Under the pieces are notes generated by a model. The model made no database searches, was not told the origin of the DNA, and saw only the letters and a program-made list of their open reading frames with translations. The translations under genes and the position numbers were made by a program. Shown here one piece after another: positions 2,641 through 19,784 of a DNA stretch of 22,098 bases. The stretch is taken from the IMG/VR virus record IMGVR_UViG_3300021963_000727, positions 1 through 22,098 of that record, one strand, 5' to 3'. The first letter of the stretch is position 1. Each line of letters begins with the position of its first letter. Source of the DNA: a virus.

Positions 2641-5600
2641 TTAGTTACTATCTGCGCCCCAAATATGGAATACTAAAGTTTGAGAACCACCTGCTAAAGT
2701 TCCTACTGCTGTCATTGTTGCTCCTATTGCACTTGTTGCTGTATTGTCGTATTTTAAAAAGTTTGCCAATCCAACTGACCCTTTGGCATTCCATGTTAGA
2801 TATGAACTTGTTTTAAAGGCATACGGATAGGTAATATCGAACATTTTACCATCTGCAACAGGTGATGTACCAACATTAAATACAACAGCTACGCTATTAC
2901 CTGTTCCTGTAACGCTTAATATTCCGCCACCTGTTCCCAATCCATTTCCAATCACAAAATTAGCAGCAGTCCAAGGGTTTGATTTACCTGTAAAATTCAA
3001 AGCTCTGCATTGCCCATTCACGTCTAATTCCACATCAGGCGCATCCTTATTTATTCCTACTTTTGGTGGAGTAGTATTTGTTATAATTAATCCGCTGTTT
3101 ACTGTTCCACCCGGTGCGCTTGCATTAGGTGTTATCTTGAATTTGTCACTGTCTGAATTGTCCAACCCTATAGCATGACTTACTACACCTGTAACGCTGA
3201 ATTGAATTACAGGATCTGCTGCTATTGATCCACCTGTAGATAGTTGAAAAATAGTATTTGAATTGGCTAAATTATTACTATTATTCAGAGACATTGCCAT
3301 ATTCCCTGTAATGTTACCACGCATTCCTAAGAACTCTGTAGTACCAGTTATTGCCCCAGTTTGAATATTTAATATCGAACTGTCTGCGCCACCTCCAGCA
3401 ACAGAGCCTGTTATGGTCATTCGATTATTTGTATTATTCCATAATAGTTGAGCCGAATTAGATATTACATTCGTACCCGTAAAAATAGGTACTCTACCAC
3501 TTACGCCTGTAATGTTGAGCAATGTGTAGGCTTGTGCAACTGATATTTCTTCAACAACGCCTGCTCCAGCTGATCGCCTGCCAAGGAGCGTATTTGTTGC
3601 TCCTACGTTTTGTATTTTTGCGTAAGTTACTGCGCTATTAGTTATACCTCCTGTATTTACAGTTGCAAAAGAAATGCTTGAATTACTACCATCTGAAACT
3701 AAAACTTGATTGGCTGCACTTGAAGCAATATCAGTAACGTTACTGGTAACGTTACCTGATACTCCTACCACCGAATGCGCAGCACCCTGACGAAACTTTG
3801 CATTTGTCACAACATTATTATCAATAGTCCACGTTGCACCCGAACCACTTACTGTTATATCGCCCTTATCCCCATCCGCTATATTTGCTATAGATGCTTC
3901 GCCCTGCCATCCGTTTGCAGTATCCCATGTAAGCACATGGCCATCTGTAGTGCCGCTGTAAGCCTCCCATGCGTCTGTAGTGTCATTATATCGTAATACC
4001 TGACCTTGTACCGCTGAAGGCAAGGAAAATGCGTAAGCGGCTTGTTTTACAACCAAGTATGAATCCTCAGGGAAATCGTTTGTGGCCGTTGCGCTTGTTA
4101 CCGATATAGATGTTGCACCTAATGCCGGAACAGCTGATACGGTGAACGTCTGAAATTGTCCTGTGATAGGATTTACAATTGTGACACCATCACCAACAAG
4201 AAACTCATTACCCAATGATGCTACCTGGATTGGAATGCTTGTAACCGTATCCCCTTCATCTATTCCTGAATCCAGTGCATTATATGCTACAGGGGCAAGA
4301 ACTGTAGGCCCAGGATTTACGTTCATGCCTGGTGAATTGTTCGTTAATCCGTTAGGATTATTTGAGCCGATTATGGGAGGAAAAGTAGGCCCATTTTGCG
4401 TTACTTTTACTTTTACGGGTGTTGAATTTACCCCAGCACTTCCATAATCCAATTCAAACCATGTTCCTCTTGTTACGTTTTGAGTCAAATCCCATTGAAG
4501 TGCTGAAAACATCCATATTATCCCATCTGAGGTAGATATTAATTTTCGAGGTGACAAATTACCAAATAGGCTACCGTTTAACCTCCTTCTTGTCGTATCT
4601 CTTGAATTAAGCAAATTCTTAACTAAAATTTGACCTATGCTTGTATTTCTCGCATCTGAACCTTGTCCCCACGATGTTGCAGCTACCCATGTAGTGCCAT
4701 TCCAAAAAAATGTCCTACCCTGAGAGTTTGCATTTGATTCGCTACCTATCCTAATATTTGTTTCGTACTTTTCTGAAGAACTTACACTATTATTTGATAT
4801 GTACATTATTTGATCCTCAGTAATAGTCGTAGTTCCCTTGTCAATTACTTCAAGGAAAATACCATCCACAGACCATTCTAAGGTGTATCCACTGTAAATT
4901 GGTGTACCTTGGGAAGATAATATTGTGCTAAAGTCAAATTCTAATGTATTTGCATCACCATCATCAAGCAATACAGTCGTAAGAATATCTAAGTTGACAG
5001 TTCCAGATAGTATTGATCCTGTGGGATAAAAAGGCATTTGAAGTGGGCCAATTGGTACGCCAAATGAACCCGCTCCCGTATTCCAATATCCAGTTCCTAT
5101 ATGAGACGAGAAATTTGTAATTGTATATGGCCTTTTATAATAAAAAGCTCCTATTTTTAGGCTAATTGTAGGCACTAAGAATGCCTGAATAGGTACGGTT
5201 GCTGTAGCTGTTACTTTGTAACTGATACGACCTGTTATTCTGCAAATAGCTTTTGAATTATCACATGAAATTTCTTGATCAAAATCAATATTAGGTGATG
5301 TGGCAGTAATGCTTGCACCATTTAGGAAATTACGCCTTGTCTTAATGTCGTAGAATACTTTAGTCTGGCTGAGTGCTGGAAGAAAGTCGTAATTTATTTG
5401 TTTTAGCTTTGCTCCTGATATTGTCTGATTTATTGTACTTGTTCCTGTTACCACTGCATTTGCAAGGTAACCTCCTGTTTTTGAATAATGTCGTGAATAA
5501 AAAGATGCCGAAGTCCTATATGATATTTGTTCAATCCAGAAAACACCATCAATCTGAAACATTCTACATTCAAATGACTTGAGTATATGCCAAAGTACAT

Positions 5601-15964: not shown

Positions 15965-16010
15965 AACACAAAGATGGGGCTAATACATTGTAGAAAAATA
16001 AATGTGAGGT

Positions 16011-16030
16011 TAACTACTAAAATGTAGTTA
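16011..16030. promoter_or_regulatory. Inverted repeat just upstream of candidate promoter
   Basis: TAACTAC (16011-16017) and GTAGTTA (16024-16030) are perfect inverted repeats with a 6-nt spacer. They end 9 nt before a TACCTTTG box. In position and size this could be an operator for the plus-strand gene or for the divergent portal operon. It could equally form a weak hairpin. No bound protein can be named. Confidence 0.35.
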
Positions 16031-16039
16031 AATACAAAT

Positions 16040-16047
16040 TACCTTTG
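16040..16047 (+). promoter_or_regulatory. Candidate Bacteroidota -7 promoter box
   Basis: TACCTTTG matches the Bacteroidota sigma-ABfr -7 consensus TAnnTTTG exactly. No clear -33 TTTG/TTG element is seen at the usual ~19-21-nt spacing, so support is partial. If used, transcription would start at about 16054, giving a leader of ~110 nt that contains both hairpins described at 16064-16131 and reads into the gene at 16164. Confidence 0.4.
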
Positions 16048-16063
16048 TGCTATCAGAATCACA

Positions 16064-16131
16064 GCATCGGGCAATGATGCAACAAAATATTTATCTGCGT
16101 TTTAGTCATGCTATCTGATTGCCCCAGATAG
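16064..16131 (+). promoter_or_regulatory. Structured leader: two hairpins with complementary 7-nt loops (kissing loops)
   Basis: Hairpin 1 is GCATC (16064-16068), loop GGGCAAT (16069-16075), GATGC (16076-16080). Hairpin 2 is CTATCTG (16111-16117), loop ATTGCCC (16118-16124), CAGATAG (16125-16131). The two loops are each 7 nt and are perfect reverse complements, so they can form a 7-bp kissing interaction. TGCGTTTT (16096-16103) can also pair with AAAGCGCA (16140-16147), with one G-U, closing an outer stem around hairpin 2. A second TATCTG at 16092-16097 could compete with the hairpin 2 arm. The element lies in the leader of the gene at 16164, 30-100 nt before its ATG. Purine riboswitches also join two hairpins by 7-nt loops, but I see no conserved purine-aptamer core. 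It may be a cis-regulator or the protein's own RNA target. Confidence 0.6.
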
Positions 16132-16163
16132 TTTTGATTAAAGCGCATTTTTATTTTTAAATT

Positions 16164-16799
16164 ATGGCAAAGTCCAAAAATGAAGGTGAGGTTTTTAATA
16201 ACCTCGAAAATGCTTCTGAATCATTAATTGATGCGCAACGTCCCTATTTGGCTACGGTTAAAATAGTTGGGACAGCAAAAAAACTTTTTCACTGCTGGAA
16301 ACAGAGTATCGTAGATGTAAAGGCGAGCAGCCTAAAGAACAGTACAACAAAAAAAACTGATGACATAGAATCCTATGTTATTCGCAATGAAAAAGGACTA
16401 ATCACAATTCCTACTGCGAATTTTTGTGCATCAATCAGATATGCGGGCAAAGCGTTTGCCGATCCATCAAGCCCACGAAAATCAATGTATGACAAACTAA
16501 ATTCCATTTGTGTGCCTTATGATGAATATGCACTTATAAATGAAGGAGTTAATACATGGGACTATATTGATGCCAGACGAGTTGTTATTCAGCGTGCTGG
16601 CATAACTCGTCAACGTCCTGGATTTAATGAAGGATGGACGGCTACTTTCAAAATAATGATATTGGCTTCTGATTTCTTGCCACCTGCAAGACTTCGTGAA
16701 ATTATGGACTATGCAGGCAAGTTTCAGGGTATTGGCGATTTTCGCCCATCGCATGGCCGTTACCGTGTTGATGGGTTTTCAATTGAAGTTGCCGCTTAG
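16164..16799 (+). CDS. Phage protein with RAMP/Cas7-like layout, linked to GGTNN array
   Basis: 211 aa, the only plus-strand gene. After a polar N-terminus come LATVKIVGTAKKLFHCW (~29-45), GLITIPTANFCASIRYAG (78-95), DARRVVIQRAGITRQRPGF (136-154), WTATFKIMI, and a C-terminal helix leading into GIGDFRPSHGRYRVDGF (189-205). I recognise this as a widespread uncharacterised phage family with a first strand 'I.G.aPLlmh', 'iP...~..alr.AG', 'R..P.F..W' and 'GIGD.RP.yGRF.V'. The ferredoxin-like order and Gly-rich C-terminal loop recall RAMP (Cas7/Cas5-like) RNA-binding proteins; that relation is inference, and no catalytic residues are evident. The ATG follows a T/A-rich stretch without Shine-Dalgarno. 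The TAG stop at 16797-16799 overlaps the first base of the pentamer array, so gene and array are probably co-transcribed. Confidence 0.85.
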   Translation: MAKSKNEGEVFNNLENASESLIDAQRPYLATVKIVGTAKKLFHCWKQSIVDVKASSLKNSTTKKTDDIESYVIRNEKGLITIPTANFCASIRYAGKAFADPSSPRKSMYDKLNSICVPYDEYALINEGVNTWDYIDARRVVIQRAGITRQRPGFNEGWTATFKIMILASDFLPPARLREIMDYAGKFQGIGDFRPSHGRYRVDGFSIEVAA

Positions 16800-17196
16800 G
16801 TAAGGCTAATGGGTTAGGTACGGTGAGGTGTGGTGTGGTTGGGTGGGGTCTGGTTAGGTATGGTAAGGTAAGGCTAATGGGTGGGGTCGGGTCAGGTGTG
16901 GTGTGGTGAGGTGGGGTATGGTGAGGTACGGTGAGGTATGGTAAGGCTAATGGGTTAGGTACGGTGAGGTAGGGTGGGGTATGGTCAGGTATGGTAAGGC
17001 TAATGGGTTAGGTAAGGTTCGGTGAGGTCGGGTATGGTAGGGTACGGTGCGGTAAGGTATGGTAAGGCTAATGGGTGAGGTATGGTGTGGTACGGTAAGG
17101 TAAGGTGGGGTCAGGTATGGTATGGTAAGGCTAATGGGTGTGGTCGGGTGGGGTGGGGTGCGGTTCGGTGAGGTTTGGTGAGGTAAGGTCTGGTTT
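16799..17196 (+). repeat. GGTNN pentamer array punctuated by GGCTAATG octamers
   Basis: By hand parsing, all 398 bases resolve without remainder into 70 pentamers GGTNN plus six exact octamers GGCTAATG. The anchor GGTAAGGCTAATGGGT starts at 16799, 16867, 16940, 16993, 17061 and 17124, so anchor spacing is 68, 73, 53, 68 and 63 bp. One GGTAA precedes the first octamer; then come blocks of 12, 13, 9, 12, 11 and 12 pentamers. GGT never varies. NN shows 15 of 16 dinucleotides (AA 12, AT 10, GA 9, GG 7, GT 6, AC 5, others 1-4, CC none). Each octamer is preceded by GGTAA, mostly GGTAT-GGTAA. A 5-nt period with many TAG/TGA triplets excludes coding. It fills the space between two convergent genes and is probably transcribed from the plus-strand gene. 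Confidence 0.95.
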
Positions 17197-17204
17197 TATT
17201 AACA

Positions 17205-17238
17205 ATGCGGATAATGCGGAAATCCGCATTATCCGCAT
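17205..17238. terminator. Perfect 16-bp inverted repeat (hairpin) between convergent genes
   Basis: ATGCGGATAATGCGGA (17205-17220) and its exact reverse complement (17223-17238) are separated by AA. Each arm contains two copies of an AATGCGGA-like octamer (17204-17211, 17213-17220, and inverted 17223-17230, with 17232-17239 differing at one base). It lies 8 nt after the pentamer array and 2 nt before the stop of the minus-strand gene. It could act as a bidirectional terminator, a 3' end for the array transcript, or a protein-binding or cruciform site. There is no strong T-tract on either side, so a classical rho-independent terminator is not established. Confidence 0.6.
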
Positions 17239-17473: not shown

Positions 17474-18436
17474 TTAAATTGTTTTCCCTTCTAATCCAAG
17501 AATTTGAAGGATATGATGGTATCTGATTGCATTTACTTTGTCAAGATTATAATGCTTTATAATTGCAGATTTGCTCGCAGACCATTGTGATTCGATAAAA
17601 TCAGTATTAGTAGTAAATTTATCAATTGACCACTCCCATCCTGGCTTAGTAGCGTAATTTGTTACACATACTGCACCAGCCATCGTAGCTTCAATCCATG
17701 CAATGTTACTTTTTGCGTCATTAAACTCATTAATTTGCAAAGGCTTCCACATAATGTTAATCCCTACCTTTGATATGCCAGATATGTACTCAATTAGATC
17801 TACTCTTCTTAATCCTCTTGAATTATCAGTTCTATAACTTGAAGGATGATAACCCCAAAAAAGCCAATTTGTATATTGCTGATAATTCTCCTCAAATAAT
17901 TCAACTGCATCCTCATTTTGAATATCAGCAATCTGTGAAGCACTTCCCCTCCAGCATACTACTCCTTTGTAATCGCTTGGCTTTTCAGGCAATTCATTTT
18001 CAAGAATTGCATTAGGCACAACTACACCCCTACCATCTCGTGCATCACAAAAATCCATTAATGGATCGGTGCTGCACCAAATGCCATCCGCAAGAGCATA
18101 TATTTTGTGTAAAATTTGTGCTGACTCATTGTAATCTGCTTCTGAAGGATGTCCAGGTGGAAGTCTCCATAAATTGTCATCAATATCAATGATAACTTTA
18201 ATATTGAATAGTGAATTCTTACACATCTGAATGAATGCAAGACTATTAGCTGTAATAGGTCTGAACATCAAAACAACATCAGCCCAAAGCAAATCAGTTG
18301 CTGTTGCTTTTTCAGAAACTTGTTTTATTTCAATATCCTCCCACTTCCTTTGTAATTCAGACAATGGTCTGATATTACGCCACCACGTTACTCCATCAAG
18401 ATTTGGATTATCAACTGCAAGTATTCGTATTTTCAT
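17474..18436 (-). CDS. Glycosyltransferase, GT4-like (GT-B type)
   Basis: 320 aa from ATG 18436. An ATG two codons upstream (18442) is possible, but 18436 gives the 4-nt ATGA overlap seen at the two preceding junctions. The N-terminal half begins MKIRILAVDNPNLDGVTWWR and includes VIIDIDDNLWRLPPGHP and ADGIWCSTDPL, as in phage and bacterial GT-B enzymes. VVVPNAI marks the domain boundary. The C-terminal half has KPLQINEFNDAKSNIAWIEA followed by TMAGAVCVTN, matching the donor-binding 'F-N-x-x-K-S-x-x-k-x-l-E-x-x-a-x-G-x-P-v-v' motif. It would transfer a nucleotide-activated sugar; acceptor unknown. Placed with a GT2-like enzyme and a methyltransferase, it likely modifies a glycan or a phage component. 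Confidence 0.85.
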   Translation of the reverse strand: MKIRILAVDNPNLDGVTWWRNIRPLSELQRKWEDIEIKQVSEKATATDLLWADVVLMFRPITANSLAFIQMCKNSLFNIKVIIDIDDNLWRLPPGHPSEADYNESAQILHKIYALADGIWCSTDPLMDFCDARDGRGVVVPNAILENELPEKPSDYKGVVCWRGSASQIADIQNEDAVELFEENYQQYTNWLFWGYHPSSYRTDNSRGLRRVDLIEYISGISKVGINIMWKPLQINEFNDAKSNIAWIEATMAGAVCVTNYATKPGWEWSIDKFTTNTDFIESQWSASKSAIIKHYNLDKVNAIRYHHILQILGLEGKTI

Positions 18437-19173
18437 AACCATCTTGGAGCAGAATTGTCTACCCCGGCATTTAAAAGTTCATTCCATTTTTCTTTAATCC
18501 ATCCAGATGGGTTTTTCAAATAGTCTTGATACCAGATATAATATCTATTATCAGTCAATCCCATTTCAGTCATAGATTTTCCATGATTTAATATCTTATT
18601 TTCTAATTGTTTTTTTGTCCTAAATTGATAGTGCTTATAATATATAGCATAATTTATCTCTGATTCTTTGCCATTAATCATGTGGCTTCCGATACTTATA
18701 AGCATATTTTTATCAAACCAACCAAAGACTTTTGTCTGTGGATCTTGCCACAAAGTACCGCCACCTGGATATACATTCAAATATCTCATTTGAAGGAAAA
18801 ATGGCTTTTCATTATGGTTTAGTGTTTTTAAAAAATCACTAAGAGATGAATACTTCTGAGGAAGTTGAATGAACTCATCCGCATCGGCAGGGAATATCCA
18901 TCTATGACCATCTTCTATCGCTTTATTTTTAAGCTCATTAATAATTCGCTCACCGGCAAATGTTGGATCGTTATCATAGCTCAATGTAATATTTATGCCT
19001 CTCCCACTACTTAATTCCTCAATAATCTTGTCAGTCCAATCAGTTGATCCATTGTCGCAAATATAAAAATCCGTTACCCCATGGTCAAGCCAATGCTTTA
19101 GACATTTAGCTATTATATCCGACTCATCCTTAACCATCATTATAACAGCAGGTCGGTCTATTGTTGCATTCAT
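18433..19173 (-). CDS. Glycosyltransferase, family 2-like (GT-A, Glyco_tranf_2_4 type)
   Basis: 246 aa. MMVKDESDIIAKCLKHWLDH (12-31), VTDFYICDNGSTDWT (33-47) and WIFPADADEFIQLP (92-105) are the motifs of the Glyco_tranf_2_4/GT2 type: N-terminal K-x-E-x-x, the D-x-GSTD nucleotide-sugar loop, and a DxD metal-binding site (Asp97/Asp99). GSHMINGKE and a Tyr-rich helical C-terminus follow. It presumably transfers a sugar from a nucleotide donor. The start forms an ATGA overlap with the methyltransferase stop, and its stop forms an ATGA overlap with the next glycosyltransferase, so the three are made together. Confidence 0.88.
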   Translation of the reverse strand: MNATIDRPAVIMMVKDESDIIAKCLKHWLDHGVTDFYICDNGSTDWTDKIIEELSSGRGINITLSYDNDPTFAGERIINELKNKAIEDGHRWIFPADADEFIQLPQKYSSLSDFLKTLNHNEKPFFLQMRYLNVYPGGGTLWQDPQTKVFGWFDKNMLISIGSHMINGKESEINYAIYYKHYQFRTKKQLENKILNHGKSMTEMGLTDNRYYIWYQDYLKNPSGWIKEKWNELLNAGVDNSAPRWL

Positions 19174-19784
19174 GTATTTTTTTGTTTTAATACAATAGTA
19201 AATCCATTGCCAACTTTGTCATCAGGACTGTCAACTCTTACTATATCCCAATTTTTGCCCCAAGTTTGCAAGCAAATCCAATCACACATTGAGATAAATG
19301 AATTAGCAGTCCACCTGCTGTGATGTTCATCACTTGTACCTTCAACATGATTAAAATACCTATCAATATGCTCCTGAAGTTCTGTTAAAGGTTTATCCTT
19401 ATCACTTTCAAGCGCATCCCTTTGCGGAACAATCATAAAAATATACTGCGTTGCAATTCGCATCCATTCTTGAATTGCTCTTATCGGATTATGAAAATGT
19501 TCAATTACATGGCTATTAATTACAAAATCGTAAGACTGAGAAGGAACTTTTATATCGTCACCAGGTGATACTATATCAACAGGCATGACTTCACCGCATA
19601 ATCTTACTTGTTCATTTGCATAAGGTTCAAATGATAGATCAGTATGGCTGAATTTATCAATGTTGATTGTCATCAATCCAAAAGCATTGTGGTATGCCCC
19701 TCCTATCTCAATGCCTCTAAGTCCATCAAGTAGATTATGGGCTAATTTAGATTCTGGAAATTTTTTTGAATTGTAAATTTGCAT
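19170..19784 (-). CDS. SAM-dependent methyltransferase (class I)
   Basis: 204 aa. Residues 24-30 (GIEIGGA) form the SAM-binding motif I; an acidic residue follows in NIDKFSH (Asp43). VPSQSYDFVINSHVIEHFHN (80-99) is the 'DvV.s.hvlEH..d' post-II signature of Methyltransf_11-type enzymes, and IQEWMRIATQYIFMIVPQ follows. The C-terminus is shorter than in many relatives. Context with two glycosyltransferases suggests O-methylation of a sugar or related surface group rather than DNA methylation: no NPPY-type motif is present. It begins 1 nt after the large terminase stop and overlaps the GT2-like gene by 4 nt. Confidence 0.82.
   Translation of the reverse strand: MQIYNSKKFPESKLAHNLLDGLRGIEIGGAYHNAFGLMTINIDKFSHTDLSFEPYANEQVRLCGEVMPVDIVSPGDDIKVPSQSYDFVINSHVIEHFHNPIRAIQEWMRIATQYIFMIVPQRDALESDKDKPLTELQEHIDRYFNHVEGTSDEHHSRWTANSFISMCDWICLQTWGKNWDIVRVDSPDDKVGNGFTIVLKQKNT

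Follow-up and report, generated by a model that had tools for sequence, protein, structure and literature searches.

The window analyzed here, a 22,098-nt stretch of viral DNA (IMG/VR record IMGVR_UViG_3300021963_000727), carries a cassette composed of a leader, a protein-coding gene (vipr), an array of GGTNN pentamers directly downstream of that gene on the same strand, and a hairpin. The cassette is flanked by capsid, portal, protease and terminase genes (ten proteins scanned) and stands alone on the + strand, with the portal gene on one side and a small ORF, glycosyltransferase and methyltransferase genes and the terminase on the other. The genes inserted between portal and terminase beside the cassette (17474–19784) encode a glycosyltransferase-like protein, a family 2 glycosyltransferase and a methyltransferase. 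In the closely examined relatives L224 and L274, unlike in the window, vipr adjoins RusA and helicase genes. The cassette comprises the following features:

16000–16163, + strand: leader before vipr, with 160/164 bases identical in the related contig L002
16164–16799, + strand: vipr gene, encoding the 211-aa Vipr (RAMP-fold) protein, assigned by homology, profile, Foldseek and PHROG 4652
16799–16811, + strand: first GGTAAGGCTAATG repeat, starting on the final base of the vipr stop codon
16812–16871, + strand: vrRNA block 1, 12 pentamers (TA AC GA GT GT TG GG CT TA AT AA AA)
16872–16879, + strand: GGCTAATG octamer 2
16880–16944, + strand: vrRNA block 2, 13 pentamers
16945–16952, + strand: GGCTAATG octamer 3
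16953–16997, + strand: vrRNA block 3, 9 pentamers
16998–17005, + strand: GGCTAATG octamer 4
17006–17065, + strand: vrRNA block 4, 12 pentamers
17066–17073, + strand: GGCTAATG octamer 5
17074–17128, + strand: vrRNA block 5, 11 pentamers
17129–17136, + strand: GGCTAATG octamer 6
17137–17196, + strand: vrRNA block 6, the last, 12 pentamers, with no repeat behind it
17205–17238, + strand: 15-bp hairpin with a terminator-like fold, conserved in L002, the probable transcription terminator of the cassette

A recount of the array (16799–17196) confirmed what an initial annotation had reported: 70 GGTNN pentamers with GGT intact in 70/70, 15 of the 16 possible NN dinucleotides (CC is the absent one), and six GGCTAATG octamers setting off blocks of 9–13 pentamers. 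One GGTAA adjoins the vipr stop codon, and the other 69 pentamers are spread over the six blocks (12, 13, 9, 12, 11 and 12). NN usage is uneven (AA 12, AT 10 and GA 9 among 70), partly due to the GGTAT/GGTAA approach at block ends. The unit of the array is better written as GGTAAGGCTAATG plus block: this 13-nt repeat stands before all six blocks, with none behind block 6, leaving a spacing between guides of the 8-nt octamer only, or of 13 nt if GGTAA is included. The final block leads into the strong hairpin at 17205–17238 (fold −28.9 kcal/mol, z −7.6; terminator-like). Runs of three or more GGTNN are absent from the rest of the window on both strands, and an Rfam search of the window returned no match, so no known hammerhead was recognized between the guides. 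Blocks 1 and 3 begin with the same three dinucleotides (TA, AC, GA), which had been taken as a hint of block duplication; a shared run of three occurs in 30% of permutations and is attributed to chance.

Such a pattern could in principle be a plain pentanucleotide tandem repeat produced by slippage, or an assembly artefact. Scanning IMG/VR for ten consecutive GGTNN, a pattern search that the initial annotation had proposed, returned at least 119 stretches, which we split into simple pentamer repeats and high-diversity arrays. Among the matches listed, 37 stretches of viral contigs are simple repeats built from one or two kinds of unit, which lends slippage a precedent, but they have low NN diversity and none is accompanied by a Vipr homologue (0/37), against 68 of the 82 high-diversity stretches. 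No GGT has changed in 70 units, and arrays of this kind turn up independently in L002 and in dozens of other viral contigs, so the array is no assembly artefact confined to this record. We consider slippage or artefact refuted, with a negligible residual probability. In relatives, GGT/GGC scaffolds are kept while NN turns over, with two defective units in about 80 in L002, which supports the earlier proposal that selection or mechanism restricts variation to NN, in our reading through function. Retrieval starting from the protein yielded 72 Vipr loci, 48 of which have at least eight diverse GGYNN pentamers, all on the vipr strand. Fourteen high-diversity stretches among the matches listed (e.g., L045, L117 and L101) lack a Vipr hit in the fetched flanks; their flanks may be cut short, their Vipr may be more distant, or their guides may act in trans.

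The protein matches the solved Vipr of Escherichia phage SUSP1 (PDB 36pp_D) with a phmmer E value of 1.3e-5, and a family profile built from 45 sequences (the window's own and relatives from array-bearing contigs) matches 36pp_D with an E value of 5.9e-48. Its structure was predicted with a pLDDT of 83.6 and a pTM of 0.78, and a Foldseek search with this model gave Csm and type VII CRISPR chains as top matches (E about 1e-6). Glycines G185, G189 and G198 are invariant, a glycine-rich loop being a feature of the VIPR RAMP/RRM fold. The protein falls in PHROG 4652, whose function is listed as unknown. The window and L002 proteins form a long-branched lineage that joins the group of phage DSL-LC04 with support 82/95, its exact place being unsure given the branch length.

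VIPR (Viral Interference Programmable Repeat) was introduced in a 2026 preprint (PMC13142463) which describes viruses silencing rival viruses by means of vrRNAs with alternating GGY and NN, 9–16 repeats per vrRNA, and a RAMP-type Vipr protein in phages. There, double-stranded DNA is read by successive NN pairs that leave out one base in between, mostly the codon wobble position; each vrRNA has a constant 3′ tail, a vap (accessory) gene is typical but not required, and the systems are classified into seven types. Production of vrRNAs, their binding and repression were shown for other VIPR systems (PMC13142463). Judged from sequence and a predicted structure, array, protein, fold and linkage settle the membership of the window in this class, so that the array, which had been thought to fall outside any nameable class, is a VIPR vrRNA array with the Vipr gene directly upstream. 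The likeness noted earlier to a repeat-spacer array, its spacers set on an invariant 5-nt scaffold, was apt, as was the view that it is neither coding, CRISPR nor a set of iterons.

With class 1 CRISPR-Cas (Csm3/Cas7) the system has in common the RAMP fold of its protein and a guide array that combines a short repeat with variable blocks, features that would also fit a CRISPR array of unusual form. In the window, however, the repeat is 13 nt, GGT recurs every 5 nt within the spacers and the guide would be read with gaps; Vipr is only about 10–14% identical to RAMPs. No adaptation or effector cas gene, cas1 and cas2 included, was recognized among the ten window proteins scanned, and Vipr itself has no cas match in Pfam or PADLOC. 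We regard an unusual CRISPR array as extremely improbable. Instead, we are highly confident in the explanation proposed here as a whole, namely that the window holds a VIPR system on an HK97-type tailed phage, encoded as a self-contained + strand cassette.

The window is a divergent, previously undescribed example of this already known system. It shares with VIPR systems such as SUSP1 Vipr (PDB 36pp) grouped GGY/NN repeats, an adjoining RAMP-fold protein of about 200 aa and carriage by a phage. Relative to VIPR as described in the preprint, it differs in its divergent Vipr lineage, its six guides placed head to tail, its packaging-module position and the lack of a same-strand accessory gene: vap has no same-strand neighbour as candidate in the window, the nearest ORFs lying on the opposite strand. 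The Vipr homologue of phage DSL-LC04 (OR003939.1), annotated as a transcriptional regulator, is 41% identical over 98% of the window query and is also accompanied by GGYNN arrays; there, however, the arrays lie upstream of the gene, contain GGC units and use other separators, and a same-strand 147-aa gene follows. VIPR is thereby seen in a phage lineage far from the tested systems, and the analysis, using nothing but sequence, independently confirms a recently reported RNA-guided system believed to predate CRISPR.

By analogy with those systems, a single transcript would probably span vipr and the array and end at the hairpin at 17205–17238. Its promoter probably lies in the leader (16000–16163); a promoter scan found sites no more frequent than in shuffles. 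The array would be processed into six vrRNAs, each of 9–13 GGU-NN units. Vipr subunits, sharing the RAMP fold of Cas7/Csm3, would bind along the RNA at its GGU positions, leaving every NN pair exposed. The exposed pairs would then read double-stranded DNA, skipping one base per triplet, and the bound complex would repress its target. The six guides of the window are likely to be directed against rival phages or satellites.

The relatives offer a view of this gapped code. Over 66 loci, which are not all independent, the first NN base is richer in G than the second (46 vs 13 loci) and poorer in T (44 vs 18); this composition is typical of codon positions 1 and 2 and agrees with the code in the preprint. 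We compared all array windows of the collected loci, taken as 10-pentamer windows, with all collected DNA. The statistics leave out loci that had been retrieved with target patterns of the window, since including them inflated skip 1. With homologous sites counted and overlapping windows taken separately, skip 1 gave 19, 34 and 155 matches at 0, 1 and 2 mismatches, against 0, 0 and 14 for skip 0, 0, 0 and 23 for skip 2, and 0, 2 and 25 for order-shuffled guides. Counted as distinct guide windows, skip 1 gave 1 at no mismatch and 12 at one mismatch, and the shuffles 0 and 2. Judged by these matches, the target code with a 1-nt skip also holds in relatives of the window Vipr, which shows it at work in the wider clade.

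In relatives, guides find targets in three genes of sibling phages (helicase, DUF669 and vipr); these phages would thus aim guides at each other's copies. Because the DNA compared comes from the surroundings of vipr genes or arrays, neighbours of vipr are over-represented in this list. One L274 guide agrees, under skip 1, with 19 sites across sibling loci over an unbroken stretch of ten dinucleotides (20/20 bases); the sites examined lie in the reading frame of the helicase gene, at the residues VNVLTTGFDA. The targeted sibling helicase carries ResIII/DEAD and Helicase_C domains. L274's own helicase is without about residues 198–472 of the sibling protein, the target-bearing part, so L274 cannot hit itself there. 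The guide and the internally deleted helicase gene lie at L274:3369–3423 and 3557–4516. The vipr gene of L274 appears split over two frames, which may reflect partial decay of this contig or an error in its sequence. Sibling DUF669 genes are matched by guides of L249 (up to 25/28) and L274 (20/22), whose own loci score 17 and 16; the start region of the sibling helicase is matched by an L253 guide (21/24), against 18 at its own locus. The first guides behind their own vipr in L267 (951–1010) and L255 (2835–2894) find their match at the 3′ end of sibling vipr genes, stop codon included (22/24 and 21/24, against 19/24 for their own), which reads as VIPR aimed at VIPR.

Scans of IMG/VR (blocks 1, 2, 4, 5 and 6) and of genomes (blocks 1 and 4) gave no target for the guides of the window itself; matches reached seed length only and were often antisense or out of frame. 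Exact-match scans miss targets with mismatches, and the lack of targets is thus a gap and not evidence against function. Two candidates were rejected as chance: block 5 against a site immediately behind vipr in L214 (19/22), equalled by 2/40 order-shuffles and out of frame, and block 6 against L219 (19/24), equalled by 4/40 order-shuffles. A VIPR locus that no longer interferes, either as a relic or because its vrRNAs regulate the phage's own genes rather than attacking rivals, would account for the missing targets, for the missing vap gene and for the two defective scaffold units of the related L002. Yet all 70 scaffold units of the window are intact, no guide has a good match inside the window itself (best 20/26), and vipr has been kept relative to L002, with an open frame and, among 23 differing bases, 12 silent changes and 10 changed codons, a modest silent excess. 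We judge loss of interference improbable.

L002 is nearly identical to the window around the array: 160/164 bases in the leader, 613/636 (96%) in vipr and 259/273 across the hairpin and next ORF. Its seven guides and the window's six have no common run longer than two NN, a complete guide turnover, and this pair makes VIPR guide renewal directly testable. Guides 2, 4 and 5 of L002 share runs of 4–6 NN (longest run within trimmed blocks, p 0.001) and look as if they had recombined in register into mosaics; its two defective units both lie in the last two blocks. One tentative reading, which we hold to be rather unlikely, is that the window and L002 stand for a distinct form of VIPR array: a compact CRISPR-like repeat-block array with the 13-nt repeat as handle and no accessory gene, whose guide blocks are replaced whole, recombine as in the L002 mosaics and decay at the end remote from vipr, at a pace well above that of the flanking genes. 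Such a process would resemble leader-end renewal without adaptation machinery.

The constant GGTAAGGCTAATG of the window precedes block 1 and is absent behind block 6, in contrast to the 3′ tail described in the preprint, whereas GGTAAGG-type tails stand behind blocks in L006 and other contigs. L006 (2217–3400) holds at least 13 guides, most ending in GGTAAGGAATGGTTTAATGAATTTAAT, which looks like a longer relative of GGTAAGGCTAATG and is placed behind the blocks. The 112-kb phage contig L039 (2609–12922) has a very large VIPR guide set, with about 250 GGTNN pentamers in runs of at least six, one of them 47 units long without interruption, spread over many separate clusters around a Vipr gene.
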